DNA of 64,000 nucleotides from Nitrosomonadales bacterium. GTDB taxonomy: Bacteria; Pseudomonadota; Gammaproteobacteria; Burkholderiales; Gallionellaceae. A program made the position numbers and the translations under genes. The stretch's first letter is position 1. Each line of letters starts with the position of its first letter. The stretch covers positions 1 through 64,000 of the forward strand of contig JAHFQY010000009.1 in the NCBI GenBank assembly GCA_023259065.1, read 5' to 3'. The notes under the pieces were generated by a model, which searched no databases, had not been told where the DNA came from, and worked only from the letters and a program-made list of their open reading frames with translations. Below are positions 6,183-25,663 of the stretch, piece after piece.

Positions 6183-7346
6183 TTATAAACCGGCGTCAGC
6201 CCTGAGTGCTGCGGCTTTGTCCGTTACTTCCCAGGTAAAGCCCGGCTCTTCGCGGCCAAAGTGGCCGTAAGCGGCGGTGTTCTGGTACACCGGGCGCAAC
6301 AGGTCGAGCATCTGCACGATGCCCTTGGGGCGCAGGTCGAAATGCTTCTTCACCAGCTCAGCGATTTTCTCGTCCGATACCTTGCCGGTGCCGTAGGTGG
6401 TGACCCACACGCTGGTAGGTTGCGCTACGCCGATGGCGTAGGAAATCTGGATCAGGCAGCGGCTGGCCAGCCCTGCAGCCACGATGTTCTTGGCCACATA
6501 ACGGCCGGCGTAGGCGGCAGAGCGGTCAACCTTGGAGGGGTCCTTGCCGGAGAATGCGCCGCCGCCATGGGGGGCTGCGCCGCCGTAGGTGTCCACAATG
6601 ATCTTGCGGCCGGTCAAGCCGCAGTCGCCCTGCGGGCCGCCGATTACGAAGCGGCCGGTGGGGTTGACCAGAAACTTGATGTTGCCCTTGATCAGCTCCT
6701 TGGGCAGCACAGGCTTGATAATTTCCTCGATTGCGGCTTCGCGTATCTGTTCGAGAGACATTTCCGGTGCGTGCTGCGTGGACAGCACCACGGTGTCGAT
6801 GGAGTGCGCCTTGCCATCCACATATTTGATGGTAACCTGAGACTTCGCATCCGGACGCAGCCAGTTCAAACGACCGTCCTTGCGCAGCTGTGACTGGCGC
6901 TCGACGATGCGGTGCGCCAGATAAATCGGCAGCGGCATCAGTGTGTCGGTTTCGTCGCAGGCATAGCCGAACATCAGACCCTGGTCGCCGGCGCCCTGAT
7001 CGAGGCCATCGTCATAGGCCTTGTTCACGCCCTGTGCTATGTCCGGGCTCTGCTTGTCATAGGCTACCAGCACCGCGCAACCCTTGTAGTCGATACCGTA
7101 TTCGGTGTTGTCGTAGCCGATGCGCTTGATGGTGTCGCGCGCAACCTGGATGTAGTCAACATTGGCGCTGGTGGTGATCTCACCGGCCAGCACAACCAGT
7201 CCGGTGTTGCACAACGTTTCGGCAGCAATGCGCGAATGCTTGTCCTGCGCCAGGATGGCATCCACGATGGCATCGGAGATCTGGTCCGCGACTTTGTCCG
7301 GATGACCTTCAGATACAGATTCAGAAGTAAAAAAATATTCGCTCAT
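6183..7346 (-). CDS. metK: S-adenosylmethionine synthetase
   Basis: 387-aa [55 protein letters not shown]. Confidence 0.98.
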
Positions 7347-19017: not shown

Positions 19018-19093
19018 GGCTCGGTAGCTCAGTCGGTAGAGCAGAGGATTGAAAATCCTTGTGTCGGTGGTTCGATTCCGCCCCGAGCCACCA
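19018..19093 (+). tRNA. tRNA-Phe (GAA)
   Basis: GGCTCGG acceptor pairs with CCGAGCC-A-CCA; anticodon loop GATTGAAAATC with GAA; T-loop TTCGATT; CCA encoded. Confidence 0.97.
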
Positions 19094-19107
19094 TATTCAA
19101 GCAAAAG

Positions 19108-19140
19108 AAAGCCAGGTCGAAAGACCTGGCTTTCTTCATT
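19108..19140 (+). terminator. Terminator downstream of tRNA-Phe
   Basis: GAAAGCCAGGTCGAAAGACCTGGCTTTCTTCATTT. Confidence 0.75.
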
Positions 19141-19255
19141 TCAGCGTCCCATGCAATTCACGGTGCGTATATATCGGGCTTGTCTTCGTGGCACTTCGTT
19201 GTCATGATTGTCGAAAGACACATGAAGCAATCTGTTGCTATCCTGACCAATACAC

Positions 19256-21310
19256 GTGAAAGTGCACAAAATGGTTCTGTCGTTTCTGGCTGAAAAGCTG
19301 ATGGGGAAAGGCATGAAAGCCATCTCCCTGATGCTTGCTTTCATATCCGTGTTCAGTGTTCTTTCTCTTTATTACAACCAGAATTCATTTCTGGAAGCAT
19401 TCGAGGCCAAGACCTACGATTTGAGGTTCACGCGCTTGCGTGGCCCGATTCCCCCCAGTCCTGAAATCGGCATTGTAGCCATTGATGACAAGAGCATTGC
19501 AGAGCTGGGGCGTTTCCCCTGGAGCAGAAGTCAATATGTGCCCTTGTTGCAAAAGCTCTCAGCGGCAGGCGCCAGAGTTGTCCTGTTTGATGCTTTCTAT
19601 CCCGAGCGCGAGAGCATGGCGGCAGATCGCGCTTTTGCGGCAGCAATCAAAAAGGCCGGTAACGTGGTTCTGGCCGTTGCATTTGATTTTGACAAAGAGC
19701 TGCATATAACCGGCAGTACACGTTCTCTGGCTGAAATTGAACGCAATGCAAGCGGAATAGGGCACATTAATTTTTTGCCGGAGGATGACGGTATCAATCG
19801 CCGCAACCGGCTATTGATCGATGTGGATGGCAAGCAGATCCCGTCGCTGGGACTGGTCGGGGCCATGGCGGCGCTGGGGGAAAAAGAGTTTGTGCTGGGC
19901 TCGTTTGAAATCAGGGTGGGTGAGCGGAGTATCCCGGTGGATGGCAGGTACTCGATGTGGATCAACTATACGGGTCCTGGCGGCAACTATCCGCATTTTT
20001 CCTTTACCGATATTGTGCATGGGCGGGTTGATCCGGCCTTGCTGAAAGGCAAGGTGCTGTTCCTGGGAGCCACGGCACTGGGTATATACGATATGCGCGT
20101 GACGCCGTTTCATGGCAATACTCCCGGGGTGGAGGTGCATGCGACGATAGCCGATAATATCATCAGCGGCCGTTTTATCCGGCAGACAGGGCTGGAAGCC
20201 CTGTTTGACATGGCGATGATCGTGGTGCTGGGTTTGCTGGCCTATTACATCACCATGCGCATGCGCTTGTATGGCGCGTTCCCGGCAACCCTGGTGTTGT
20301 CCTCCGCGTACATCTGGCTGAGCTACTGGTTGTTCAAGGAGGGCCACTGGGTCAGCATGATTTACCCGCCACTGGCCGCCATTGTTGCCTTGCTGGTAGG
20401 TGGCAGCTTCCGCTATCTGGTGCTGGAGCGCAGTGCGCGCGAGATGCGCTCGATGTTTTCCAGTTACCTGTCGGACAAGCTGGTTTCACGCCTGGAAAAA
20501 GACCCGGATGCAGCCAGGATAGGCGGTGACAACAAGCATGTGACTATCCTGTTCACGGATATCAAGGGTTTTACCACATTTAGCGAGAAACACACGCCAC
20601 AGGAAGTGGTGGCGCGCCTGAATGAATATCTCGCGGCCATGGTGCAGGTGATTGAGCGCCATGACGGCACGGTGGACAAGTTTATCGGCGATGGCATCAT
20701 GGCCTATTGGGGTGCCCCCCTGGAGCAGCCTGACCATGCGAAGCTGGCCATAGCCTGCATGCTGGCCATGCAGGCAAAGATGCAAGAGCTGTGCGGGAAA
20801 TGGGAGCGCGAAGGAGTAGAGCCATTTTATTTTCGTGGCGGGGTGCAGTCGGGTGAAGTGGTCGCTGGCAATATCGGCTTCCGCGGCAAGAAAATGGAAT
20901 ATACGGTGATAGGCGACACCGTGAATCAGGCTGCCAGGCTGGAAGGTACGGCGAAATATTATGGAGTGCAATTTCTGGTGGGCGAGAGCACCTATCTGCT
21001 GACCAGTGGCAGTTATCGTTACCGTGAGCTGGACAAGGTGCGCGTGGTAGGCAAGCAGGTGCCTGTTACAATTTACGAGCTGTGCGGAACCTTGGTCGAG
21101 CCGGAGAGCGAGCTGGTGCGGCAGTTTAATGCGGGCTTGCTTCTGTTCAGGGCACGCAAGTGGGTAGAGGCAGCAGCTTGTTTCAGGGCCATAGTTAACG
21201 AGCTTGCTGACGACAGAACGAGCAGGATTTATCTGGAACGTTGCGAGGGATTTCAGAAGTCTCCACCGCCGCAGGATTGGGATGGCGTGTCAAATCGGCG
21301 GGATAAATAG
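19256..21310 (+). CDS. CHASE2-domain class III adenylate cyclase
   Basis: 684-aa ORF (GTG start at 19256, or ATG at 19271); extracytoplasmic CHASE2 region IGIVAIDDKSIAELGRFPWSR; TM helices; cyclase motifs ILFTDIKGFT, DKFIGDGIMAYWGAP, KMEYTVIGDTVNQAARLEG. Confidence 0.92.
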   Translation: MKVHKMVLSFLAEKLMGKGMKAISLMLAFISVFSVLSLYYNQNSFLEAFEAKTYDLRFTRLRGPIPPSPEIGIVAIDDKSIAELGRFPWSRSQYVPLLQKLSAAGARVVLFDAFYPERESMAADRAFAAAIKKAGNVVLAVAFDFDKELHITGSTRSLAEIERNASGIGHINFLPEDDGINRRNRLLIDVDGKQIPSLGLVGAMAALGEKEFVLGSFEIRVGERSIPVDGRYSMWINYTGPGGNYPHFSFTDIVHGRVDPALLKGKVLFLGATALGIYDMRVTPFHGNTPGVEVHATIADNIISGRFIRQTGLEALFDMAMIVVLGLLAYYITMRMRLYGAFPATLVLSSAYIWLSYWLFKEGHWVSMIYPPLAAIVALLVGGSFRYLVLERSAREMRSMFSSYLSDKLVSRLEKDPDAARIGGDNKHVTILFTDIKGFTTFSEKHTPQEVVARLNEYLAAMVQVIERHDGTVDKFIGDGIMAYWGAPLEQPDHAKLAIACMLAMQAKMQELCGKWEREGVEPFYFRGGVQSGEVVAGNIGFRGKKMEYTVIGDTVNQAARLEGTAKYYGVQFLVGESTYLLTSGSYRYRELDKVRVVGKQVPVTIYELCGTLVEPESELVRQFNAGLLLFRARKWVEAAACFRAIVNELADDRTSRIYLERCEGFQKSPPPQDWDGVSNRRDK

Positions 21311-21382
21311 TGTGTGTAGTGTGGAAATTATCGATACCGATGCGAAGAAATAAATCGGTTTAGGCAAATCACGAATTAACGA

Positions 21383-24300
21383 ATGGTGCTCACGATGCGT
21401 TTTATTACAACTGCAATTCTTTCGATAACGCTGGTTGCATCAGCCAACGCAGCTTCTTCCGACCTGGCGCCGTCTATCGGGCTGCCGCGGGTGGACTTTG
21501 TAAAAGAAATCCCCATAAGCGGGGCAAAGAAATTGCTGGGCTGGAATGCGGGAAATTTCTATGTCGCACAGCCGGATGGTGATGTTGATGTGCTGGACAA
21601 GGACGGGCGCAAACTGCTCACCCTGCATGGCAAGGACGCCAAGGGTGGAGTGCTGCTCAAACAGCCAGAGGCCGTGGCCGTCGCCGACAACACGATTTAT
21701 GTGGTGGACAGCGAAACCAGCCAGGTTGTCATGTTCTCCCCGGATGGAAAACTGAAAGGCGCGTTTGGCACCAGGAAGGGCGGCTTCTTCAAGAGTGGCG
21801 GCAGCAATGAACTGAACTCACCCCACGGCATTGCCGTGCATGAAGGCATAGTCTATGTGGCCGATACCGGGAATCGCAGGGTGCAGCTGTATGGCAGCAA
21901 CGGCGTGTTTCTGACTGCACTGGAAATTGACAGTGCAACAGGGAACAAGGCGGCCAGGGAGAAAAGCCTGCCTTACAAACTGGTTGAGCCCACAGATATT
22001 GCGATCAATGCACAGGGACAGATTTATGTACTGGACGCAGATGACTCCTTGATCAAGGTTTATGACACCAACGGTGTTTACCTGAGGAACCTTCCCAAAA
22101 GCGGCAAGCCGCTGACATTCAGCATGGCACAGGACGGAATCTACGTGGCCGATCGCGATTCTCTGGTGATCCAGAAATATGATTTCAATGACAAGTTGGC
22201 GTATTCATTTGGTGTCAAGGGAGACGGTCGTGCGCAGCTCAAGAGTATTGCGGGCGTGCTTGCTGCCAAGGACAGGCAGGTGTTCGTGGGCGACAGCAGA
22301 AAAGGTGTAATCAATGTGTTTCTGGCCGAGGCGGGAGAGGCGCTGGAAGCGTTGCCCAAGGCGGCTTCCAGGACATCGGTGCAATATCAGGCCAGCGTTG
22401 CCGCCAGCATGGACAGGATGGCGTGGAATGGCAAGGACACGCTGTACGGCGTAGATGCGGAAAGCAAGGCGGTCATGCGCTTGCGCAACGGGACGGCTGC
22501 GGAAGACATGAAGTTGAAGGACATGACGCCGTTATCTGTTGCGACTGATAAAAGTGGCGCGCTGTGGGTGCTGGACAAGAAAAAAATGCGCGTGGTGAAG
22601 CTGGACGATGCCGGCAATGTACTCGGCAGCATCGGCAGTGAAGGCAGCAAGCCCGGGCAGCTGGACGAACCCACGGATATCGCCATCTCCAGCACGGGCA
22701 GCGTGTTTGTGGCAGACAGCGGCAATCACTGGGTGCAAGTGTTCAACCCTGAAGGCGTGTTCCTGTATGCGATACGCAGCAGCACGGTAGCCAAGCTGGA
22801 TGAGCCTGTTGCAGTGGCGCTGGATCCGCAGGACAAGGTGTTCATTCTGGACAAGTCGCGGGCGGCGGTTTCGACCTACTCGGCCAAGGGCGAGCCCATG
22901 GCCGAATTTGGCAAGACAATGGAAGGTGTGGCTGCGCTGGTCAAGCCGGTGGCGCTGATGGCAACCCAGGACGAGGTGTTTGTTGTCGATTCCGGCATGG
23001 TCAAGGTGTATTCACACCAGGGGCAATTTATCCGCGCATTTGGCGCCAAGGGCAGCGGCAACGGAGAGTTTGACGAAGCGGTTGCCATCGCTGCCAAAGA
23101 CGGCACGACTTTCTATGTTGCAGAGCGCGGCAACAAGCGCGTGCAAACCTTCGCCACCTTGCACAAGCCCGCTGCCCCGCAGCAGCTGGGTGCAAGCGGT
23201 GCTGTGCACGCGGTCTCGCTGCGTTGGGCGGCATCAGCCCTGCCCTACATCAAGCAATACAATATCTACCGCTCGCGCAGCGAAAACACCGGCTATGTGC
23301 GCGTTGCCAGCAGCTCGGGCAGTCAATATACGGACCAGGGGCTGGAGGCGGACGGGCGCTATTATTATCGTGTTGTCGCAGAGACGACAAATGGCTACGA
23401 GGGTGCCACCAGCAATGCGGTGCAAGGCGTTGCCGAAAAATTCACCCCGCCGGTATTGACCCAGGCTCAGGCTGATCCCACGCCCTGGCAGATCAAGATG
23501 AGCTGGAAGGCAATCGATCCGCAGCTTCTCAGTGCTTACCTGATCTATCAGAAAGAGGGCGATGGATTTACCAAGGTGGGTGAATCCATGCTGCCCGAGT
23601 TTACGAAAGATGCGCTGACGCCGGACACAAAATATACCTTCTATATTTCAACCCGCAGCAACGATGGAATTGAATCGGAGAAATTTGCCGTCAGCGCAAC
23701 CACGCTGAGTTTCAACAGGGCGCCGCTGGAAATTGATGTCATCAAGTTGCGCGATGTTTTCTCCAATACCTACAAGCTGTATGAGCAGGACGGGGTGGGC
23801 CGCATCAAGCTGACCAACAACACCGACAAGCCCATAGAGAAAATCAAGGTGAGCTTCCTGCTGAAGAACGTCATGGATTTCCCGACCGAGGACAAGATAG
23901 ACAAGCTCATGCCCGGACAGAGCGAGGAAATCAACCTGCTGGCCGTGTTCAACAACAGCATCCTGACGCTGTCAGAGGACAGCTCGGTGCAGGCCATGAT
24001 AGAAGCCAGCTATTTCGAGAATGGCAAGCGTGTGGTTTACAGCAAGAATTCCACGGTAAAAATCTATGACAAGCACCGTCTCACCTGGGATGAGCGCGGG
24101 CGCTATGCTTCCTTTGTCACGCCCAAGGATCAGCCGGTGATGAATTTCGTGCGCTCGGTGGTAACCCAATTCAAGGACACCAAGGACGAGTCGCAACTTG
24201 CGGCCATGGTGTTTGACGCCATGGGGGTCGCCGGGCTGACCTATATTCCCGACCCCAGCAACCCCTATCAGGTGGCCTCGGGCAAGGCCGACACGGTGGA

Positions 24301-25159
24301 CTATATCCAGTACCCGCGCGAAACCCTGGGGCGCAAGTCCGGCGATTGCGATGATCTCACCGCCTTGTATTCGGCGGCGCTGGAGAGTATGGGTATCTAT
24401 ACCCTGGTGGTCGAGGTGCCGGGTCATATGTTCATGATGTTCTCAACCGGCATTAATGCCGATGGCGACGGCTACACCATGGACGACATGTATGTCATTC
24501 ACGAAGGAAAGTTGTGGATTCCGGTGGAGGCCACGGTGGTGGGGAGCTCGTTTGTGAAAGCGTGGGAGCTGGGTGCTGCCAATTATTACAAATGGAAGGA
24601 CAAGGGGCTGACGCTGCTGGATGTCCATTCTGCATGGGCCACATACAAGCCGGCCACCCTGCCGGATGTGGCGCTGAAATCAATGGACGTTACGCCGGGA
24701 GAAATCGAGAAGCGCTTTCCCGGGGAATTCATGTCGGTGCTGAAAATCAGCTCGCAGACCAAGACCCGGCGTTATCTGCAGGCCATTGCAAAGAAGCCGG
24801 GCGATATGGAAGCGCACCTGCAGGTGGGTATAGTCCTGGCCAAGCTGGGAGACAGGAATGAGGCGATGAAATATTTTGACAAGGTGATTGCCGCCGAGCC
24901 CAAGAACGCAGCCGCACATAACAATCGCGGCAACCTGCTGATGATGGAGGCAAAATATGCGGAAGCCCAGAAAAGCTATACGGCCGCGGCGCAATATGGC
25001 GCCAATGACCCGGATATCTGGGTAAACTTGGCTAAATCCTACAAATTGGTAAATAATACAAAAAAGGCCAAAGAAGCCTTTGTTCAGGCTGACAAGCTGG
25101 ACCCTTCCGTCAGGAAGAAATACAAGGCGCTGGCTTTGGAACTGCTCAACTCGTTGTAA
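21383..25159 (+). CDS. Large exported protein: NHL/6-bladed beta-propeller repeats, fibronectin type III, transglutaminase-like domain, C-terminal TPRs
   Basis: 1258-aa ORF; signal peptide; repeats such as ELNSPHGIAVHEGIVYVADTGNRRVQLY and QLDEPTDIAISSTGSVFVADSGNHWVQVF; FN3-like 600-790; Cys/His motifs KSGDCDDLTALYSAALESMG and VPGHMFMMF; TPRs EAHLQVGIVLAKLGDRNEAMKYF. Confidence 0.85.
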   Translation: MVLTMRFITTAILSITLVASANAASSDLAPSIGLPRVDFVKEIPISGAKKLLGWNAGNFYVAQPDGDVDVLDKDGRKLLTLHGKDAKGGVLLKQPEAVAVADNTIYVVDSETSQVVMFSPDGKLKGAFGTRKGGFFKSGGSNELNSPHGIAVHEGIVYVADTGNRRVQLYGSNGVFLTALEIDSATGNKAAREKSLPYKLVEPTDIAINAQGQIYVLDADDSLIKVYDTNGVYLRNLPKSGKPLTFSMAQDGIYVADRDSLVIQKYDFNDKLAYSFGVKGDGRAQLKSIAGVLAAKDRQVFVGDSRKGVINVFLAEAGEALEALPKAASRTSVQYQASVAASMDRMAWNGKDTLYGVDAESKAVMRLRNGTAAEDMKLKDMTPLSVATDKSGALWVLDKKKMRVVKLDDAGNVLGSIGSEGSKPGQLDEPTDIAISSTGSVFVADSGNHWVQVFNPEGVFLYAIRSSTVAKLDEPVAVALDPQDKVFILDKSRAAVSTYSAKGEPMAEFGKTMEGVAALVKPVALMATQDEVFVVDSGMVKVYSHQGQFIRAFGAKGSGNGEFDEAVAIAAKDGTTFYVAERGNKRVQTFATLHKPAAPQQLGASGAVHAVSLRWAASALPYIKQYNIYRSRSENTGYVRVASSSGSQYTDQGLEADGRYYYRVVAETTNGYEGATSNAVQGVAEKFTPPVLTQAQADPTPWQIKMSWKAIDPQLLSAYLIYQKEGDGFTKVGESMLPEFTKDALTPDTKYTFYISTRSNDGIESEKFAVSATTLSFNRAPLEIDVIKLRDVFSNTYKLYEQDGVGRIKLTNNTDKPIEKIKVSFLLKNVMDFPTEDKIDKLMPGQSEEINLLAVFNNSILTLSEDSSVQAMIEASYFENGKRVVYSKNSTVKIYDKHRLTWDERGRYASFVTPKDQPVMNFVRSVVTQFKDTKDESQLAAMVFDAMGVAGLTYIPDPSNPYQVASGKADTVDYIQYPRETLGRKSGDCDDLTALYSAALESMGIYTLVVEVPGHMFMMFSTGINADGDGYTMDDMYVIHEGKLWIPVEATVVGSSFVKAWELGAANYYKWKDKGLTLLDVHSAWATYKPATLPDVALKSMDVTPGEIEKRFPGEFMSVLKISSQTKTRRYLQAIAKKPGDMEAHLQVGIVLAKLGDRNEAMKYFDKVIAAEPKNAAAHNNRGNLLMMEAKYAEAQKSYTAAAQYGANDPDIWVNLAKSYKLVNNTKKAKEAFVQADKLDPSVRKKYKALALELLNSL

Positions 25160-25201
25160 GGTCGAATGCACCGAGGTCTCAGCAATTAACTGGAGAAGAA
25201 G

Positions 25202-25600
25202 ATGAAGAAATTTATTGCCTTGCTGGTCATGTCGGGAATGGCTCTGGTTTCCACGACACTCTATGCCGCTGAAGCCGGCGACGCTTCCCTGGGTTTCTGG
25301 GAAAAGCTGCGCAGGAAGGTCGAGTTGATGGCGCCGCACAAAAATGTCAGCGCAACCACGGCGGTGGGTGGTGTGCGCGGCGCTCAGGTGACCGCCAACG
25401 ACACCTACTGGAAGGGCGAAAAAACCGTGCAGGAAGTTGATTCCGATGAGCTGGCAGCCTTCCAGAAAGCCATGGGATTGGCCGAAGCGGGCGAGGTAAA
25501 GCAGGCGCAAGCTGCTTTTGCCGACTTTATCAAGAAAAACCCTGATAGCCCCCTGCGCAAGGATGCTGATCAGGCATTGGCGCAACTGCAGACCAAATAG
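25202..25600 (+). CDS. Small exported protein of unknown function with TPR-like C-terminus
   Basis: Signal peptide MKKFIALLVMSGMALVSTTLYAAEA; good SD GGAGAAGAAG; 42 nt after the large exported protein gene. Confidence 0.75.
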   Translation: MKKFIALLVMSGMALVSTTLYAAEAGDASLGFWEKLRRKVELMAPHKNVSATTAVGGVRGAQVTANDTYWKGEKTVQEVDSDELAAFQKAMGLAEAGEVKQAQAAFADFIKKNPDSPLRKDADQALAQLQTK

Positions 25601-25635
25601 AGCACGTGGCCAAATAGAGTACGGGGATAGACCTG

Positions 25636-25663
25636 AAAAGGCTTGCGCAATGCAGGCCTTTTT
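25636..25663 (+). terminator. Rho-independent terminator
   Basis: AAAAGGCTTGCGCAATGCAGGCCTTTTT. Confidence 0.7.

Follow-up and report, generated by a model that had tools for sequence, protein, structure and literature searches.

The CYC-BIG-SML locus

The window analysed here, a 64,000-nt stretch of a Gallionellaceae-type genome, carries three plus-strand open reading frames, denoted CYC, BIG and SML, between a tRNA-Phe gene (19018-19093) and hemA, for which homologues favour a start at about 25771. The nearest relatives of the locus are found in Gallionellaceae, Sideroxydans and Nitrosomonadales bins. A previous reading of the sequence alone (hereafter, the sequence-only reading) described three co-oriented genes separated by gaps of 72 and 42 nt, and this arrangement is confirmed, with all three frames present on the plus strand. 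Two plus-strand terminator-like hairpins flank the set: one follows tRNA-Phe upstream of CYC (19105-19136; fold of 19094-19230, z -5.1), and the other, located after SML (25635-25663), has a stem of 12 bp that runs into a stretch of T residues (-17.1 kcal/mol, z -3.0). Given that no terminator-like hairpin was detected in either intergenic gap, the three genes look like a single transcription unit bounded by predicted terminators. Compared with the related locus L035, the dN/dS values are 0.091 for CYC, 0.099 for BIG and 0.109 for SML, with 0.071 for hemA as a reference. All three genes are intact; with dN/dS values of about 0.1, they evolve under strong purifying selection and behave as working genes.

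CYC (19271..21310, +) encodes a CHASE2-containing class III adenylate cyclase of 679 aa; homologues favour the ATG codon at 19271 over the earlier-called GTG at 19256, which would yield a protein of 684 aa. The CHASE2 (PF05226, E = 4.7e-59) and class III cyclase (PF00211, 6e-29) domains span residues 35-327 and 427-604, respectively, in the 684-aa numbering. Hydrophobic helices at residues 15-33 and in the 311-385 region (679-aa numbering) bracket the CHASE2 domain, placing it outside the cytoplasm. Six residues, D435, D479, K475, D554, N557 and R561, are invariant across 20 orthologues; going by what is generally known of class III cyclases, we take these to be the two metal-binding Asp, the Lys/Asp pair conferring adenine specificity and the Asn/Arg transition-state pair. 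The extracytoplasmic sensor and the intact metal-binding and catalytic motifs that had been proposed for the cyclase are thus upheld by the PF05226 match and the invariance of these residues. Judging from these features, CYC is a membrane CHASE2 receptor with an intact cytoplasmic class III cyclase active site, and is predicted to produce cAMP.

BIG (21395..25159, +) is an exported multidomain protein of 1254 aa, when counted from the ATG at 21395 favoured by homologues over the earlier-called start at 21383 (1258 aa). Accordingly, the sequence-only description of a 1258-aa protein combining a beta-propeller, FN3, a Cys-His transglutaminase-like domain and TPRs holds for the domains, as recognized by Pfam, but not for the length. 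From the N-terminus, BIG consists of a signal peptide, NHL propellers, two FN3 domains, an Ig-like domain, a transglutaminase-like (TG) domain with Cys, His and Glu, and C-terminal TPRs. Pfam recovers NHL (7e-38), fn3, TPR and DUF553 (PF04473; 22.1 bits versus a cut-off of 20.5); judged by length, the propellers would comprise approximately 12 blades. Both BIG and SML carry an N-terminal signal peptide and no further strongly hydrophobic segment. The AlphaFold model of BIG (pLDDT 83.5, pTM 0.57) is of low confidence just before the catalytic Cys, and the matches listed in its structure comparison, which include propeller, FN3 and giant receptor folds, are uninformative on the TG domain.

The Ig-like and TG domains form the core of BIG (23720..24757, +; residues 780-1125 in the 1258-aa numbering), delineated by alignments, PF04473 and dN/dS, the last of which reaches its lowest values within the protein in these two domains (0.04-0.05 versus L035). 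The putative catalytic triad, C989, H1015 and E1049, was assigned by alignment with known transglutaminase-like domains rather than measured on the structural model; its third residue is Glu rather than Asp. The Cys, His and Glu are retained in every aligned TG-core protein, with the exception of an orphan BIG (locus L034, see below). Furthermore, C989 is the sole cysteine of the mature window BIG, and SML has none. The PF04473 score of 22.1 bits for the whole protein becomes 21.3 bits for a 157-aa fragment and 19.8 bits, under the 20.5 cut-off, for a 346-aa fragment; the score of PF01841 is below its own cut-off, and the Ig+TG core retrieved nothing significant in a profile search against PDB. 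The PF04473 match of the whole protein over the curated cut-off, along with the Cys-His-acid triad, places BIG in the transglutaminase-like superfamily.

SML (25202..25600, +) is an exported protein of 132 aa, characterized through conservation among relatives, an AlphaFold model and a sequence profile. Its signal peptide is followed by an N-terminal helix, a conserved, predicted-disordered TTAVGGVRGA...YWK segment and a TPR that, in the profile, is most similar to those of CpoB and BamD. The segment contains many of the invariant residues of SML and is conserved even though AlphaFold leaves it disordered; its broader form, G-[VIT]-[RK]-G followed by YWK, is found in nearly all relatives. Further conserved Lys residues are present besides the YWK motif. 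Thus, the signal peptide and conserved motif ascribed earlier to the third protein are both found. The SML model (pLDDT 66.7) has no significant match among PDB structures.

Distribution of the trio and of the BIG-SML pair

The sequence-only reading had staked its proposal on the three genes recurring together elsewhere, and they do. One scan of genome contigs yielded 27 loci. With further genomes included, CYC-BIG-SML occurs in this order at 26 distinct loci, 24 of Gallionellaceae type, including the window, and two from Desulfuromonadales. The genomic contexts, read from the sequences of the flanking genes, include groESL/hemA, panC-panD/purB, ABC exporter/ubiD, ruvB, tgt and one other, several of which are unrelated. 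In one of the bins, a frame break interrupts BIG (L054, 7908-11747), reflecting either an assembly error or a pseudogene.

A search with the Ig+TG core shows that BIG and SML extend as a pair to Gammaproteobacteria, Nitrospirota and Desulfobacterota. By hand count, 55 loci from Pseudomonadota, Desulfobacterota and Nitrospirota have enough sequence downstream of BIG to accommodate SML, and SML adjoins BIG in 50 of them; the five others are L034, L138, L139, L140 and L143. In Gammaproteobacteria, the two genes are adjacent at all seven loci, and BIG is about 1650-1690 aa long, with extra TPRs. Three of the gammaproteobacterial genomes carry BIG-SML divergently from a MoxR-DUF58-TgpA operon (L070, 14089-17996; L072, 13952-17778; L076, 9605-13431; Pfam was run on L070), that is, next to a second transglutaminase-fold system. 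The Ig+TG-core proteins without an adjacent SML include three from Desulfobacterota (L138, 2777-6121; L139, 834-3881; L140, 7381-10977). The N-terminal part resembles a two-component-regulator propeller in L138 and L140, and the latter adjoins a gene for a small exported, FecR-like-looking protein (6823-7290).

CYC has a narrower range. Full-length CYC orthologues (>700 bits) were detected in 10 of 25 BIG-bearing and none of 55 BIG-less genomes, in an 80-genome test with kinship uncontrolled. A CYC orthologue is absent from the BIG-SML carriers tested in Gammaproteobacteria and from most of those in Nitrospirota. We therefore rejected CYC as a universal partner of BIG-SML: the only CHASE2 cyclases in the gammaproteobacterial genomes tested are 740-770 aa long, with paralogue-like scores. 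At L137, CYC again lies near BIG-SML, but in a different orientation, and three Nitrospirota genomes contain CYC unlinked to the pair. Hence, the initial view of the trio as one set needs qualification: it is conserved as a unit at 26 loci, but the wider conserved core is BIG plus SML, to which CYC is an added, lineage-specific third partner in Gallionellaceae-type genomes and Desulfuromonadales. Because BIG-SML occurs without a CYC orthologue, cAMP is not the only output of the pair, which must act on another output in the lineages lacking CYC.

Other gene sets containing CHASE2 were also encountered. Downstream of their unlinked CYC, the three Nitrospirota genomes have the same two kinds of gene, for a 233-241-aa protein and a 172-184-aa TPR-like, apparent lipoprotein (L107, 1987-5358; L185, 5309-8424; L186, 964-4149), possibly another partner set of CHASE2 cyclases. 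A second CHASE2 set is present in the same genome as the trio (L108, 6106-12570, on contig C38 of G000). Its first member is an 852-aa CHASE2 protein resembling a Ser/Thr kinase; next come an apparent PP2C protein, an apparent FHA protein and a CHASE2 cyclase of 745 aa. The kinase, PP2C and FHA assignments were made by reading the sequence. Relatives of all four proteins are encoded close together in G145 (L109).

Coupled decay of the partners

Two natural losses bear on whether the three proteins work together. G001 and G003, from the genus of the window, lack both BIG and SML and retain CYC immediately upstream of hemA. In this CYC, CHASE2 is gone, a short N-terminal hydrophobic region being fused to the second membrane segment, and all cyclase catalytic residues are kept. 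In the tree, the two genomes form one clade beside L036, and the loss of CHASE2 may have been a single event. The second case is the orphan BIG of G031 (L034), located between panC and purB, where relatives carry the whole trio; no SML match or CYC orthologue was detected in this genome. This is the only aligned BIG without the catalytic Cys and His, replaced by S and R (GDSLDL, PDR, PLD). Thus, the triad, conserved elsewhere, has disappeared solely in the absence of the partner genes. Although few events in draft genomes are involved, and each of the two losses may represent one evolutionary event, CHASE2 seems to be needed only alongside BIG-SML, and the TG active site only alongside its partners. 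The loss of CHASE2 with BIG/SML and of the triad with CYC/SML supports the view that the products form one machine.

One objection is that BIG-SML and CYC are functionally separate and found together by chance or through shared regulation, as could be suggested by the many genomes that contain BIG-SML without the cyclase and by the three Nitrospirota genomes in which the cyclase is unlinked. However, the same gene order is maintained across several unrelated contexts, linkage persists in rearranged form at L137, and both losses are coupled, so that we consider such independence improbable, the least likely of the explanations weighed here.

A putative periplasmic sensing module

The best explanation for these observations, to which we assign a probability of about 0.5, is a periplasmic BIG-SML sensing module coupled to a cAMP-producing CHASE2 receptor. 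BIG and SML would be exported to the periplasm, where the propellers, FN3 domains and TPRs of BIG might bind an envelope ligand or partner. The Cys-His-Glu domain would act on a peptide, probably proteolytically, with the predicted-disordered TTAVGGVRGA segment of SML as the likeliest target; this segment trails the N-terminal helix, much as the LapG cleavage motif trails a targeting helix. The state of BIG-SML, whether bound, cleaved or modified, would then be read by the CHASE2 domain of CYC, perhaps by direct contact, and CHASE2 would switch the cytoplasmic class III cyclase, producing an outside-in cAMP signal.

The sequence-only reading left the putative activity of BIG between crosslinking and proteolysis. 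Conceivably, the TG domain makes isopeptide bonds, linking SML to envelope proteins, for instance, and the resulting assembly is what CHASE2 monitors. The transglutaminase-like fold, the conserved Lys residues of SML and its YWK motif are compatible with this activity, but the same fold is employed by proteases, such as LapG and HvyA, and cleavage better fits the layout of SML, with a helix preceding a small-residue motif; we regard crosslinking as unlikely. A somewhat stronger, if still doubtful, contender dispenses with catalysis altogether: BIG-SML would be a binding assembly, the ligand-bound form of which touches CHASE2 and sets cAMP levels, with the TG domain only binding peptide. Indeed, binding repeats account for the bulk of BIG, SML is TPR-like and catalysis by BIG is only predicted. 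Yet, a pure binding domain need not retain Cys, His and Glu together, whereas the triad is kept in all aligned relatives but the orphan, and its cysteine is the only one in the mature protein. Returning to the sensing module with a proteolytic BIG, a more specific proposal, which we advance tentatively, is that BIG and SML constitute a hitherto undescribed but widespread pair of periplasmic cysteine protease and substrate, the output of which is wired to cAMP via CHASE2 in some lineages.

Relationship to known systems

No paper describing CYC-BIG-SML emerged from literature searches that combined CHASE2 with either transglutaminase or NHL; together with the conservation of the trio as a unit, this bears out the suggestion that the system is undescribed. 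Several known systems were considered as possible classifications. BIG does not belong to the BTLCP/LapG family (Peptidase_C93, PF06035): BIG fragments gave no match up to E = 10, and no PF06035 match over the cut-off was found in any of six genomes. The model of the anti-phage protein ProA (NCBIfam NF058533), for which our literature searches found no founding description, scores 46.2 bits against a curated cut-off of 1500 and covers the Ig+TG region only, as explained by shared domains. Assignment to Pycsar was likewise rejected: the PADLOC PycC models recognize nothing but the cyclase domain, no cNMP-activated effector was identified next to the cyclase, and neither BIG nor SML is matched by any PADLOC model.

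Exported Ig, TPR or FecR proteins are already known as genomic neighbours of CHASE2 cyclases; what is new is the BIG-SML partner pair, which also occurs where the cyclase is absent. In magnetotactic bacteria, the gene for MtxA, an exported Ig+TPR protein, adjoins that for a CHASE2 adenylate cyclase, and a role in periplasmic signalling has been proposed, although mtxA deletion caused no discernible phenotype under standard conditions (PMC4439547). Unlike BIG, MtxA is a protein of 313 aa for which propellers, a transglutaminase-like domain or an SML partner have not been reported (PMC4439547). The CHASE2 cyclase cluster of Campylobacterota, for which horizontal transfer has been inferred, similarly includes exported partners, namely, a FecR-domain protein and a TPR protein, along with a phosphodiesterase (PMC9239204). 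However, no giant transglutaminase-like protein has been reported there (PMC9239204), and the trio has no FecR or phosphodiesterase gene.

Among transglutaminase-like proteins, HvyA, a BTLCP capsulation regulator of Caulobacter, is, like BIG, an exported cysteine protein, with catalytic residues required in vivo, but it is a 272-aa BTLCP-domain protein whose gene belongs to a capsule export locus and has no cyclase partner (PMC4241560). The closest parallel is with LapD-LapG and DvhD-DvhG, in which c-di-GMP controls periplasmic proteolysis and, as in the trio, a transglutaminase-fold cysteine domain is combined with a membrane nucleotide-signalling receptor (PMC13090378, PMC4359373). LapG-type proteases recognize a targeting helix followed by an unstructured [T/A/P]AAG motif (PMC13090378); SML similarly combines a helix with an unstructured small-residue motif, and acidic residues flank the catalytic Cys of BIG as in LapG/DvhG. 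The trio differs in the Pfam family, the Cys-His-Glu triad, the 1254-aa multidomain carrier and the use of a cAMP cyclase instead of a c-di-GMP receptor.

BIG-SML adds a broadly distributed, uncharacterized protease-like pair to the known parts of the bacterial envelope. As a sensor domain, CHASE2 is widespread in bacteria; in the thin CHASE2 literature that we searched, no paper naming its input was found. Because gene order and two natural losses tie BIG-SML to CHASE2, the input of a CHASE2 cyclase becomes directly testable. If the proposed coupling is correct, BIG-SML/CHASE2 would provide a natural CHASE2 input and represent a cAMP-based analogue of LapG-LapD assembled from different parts.
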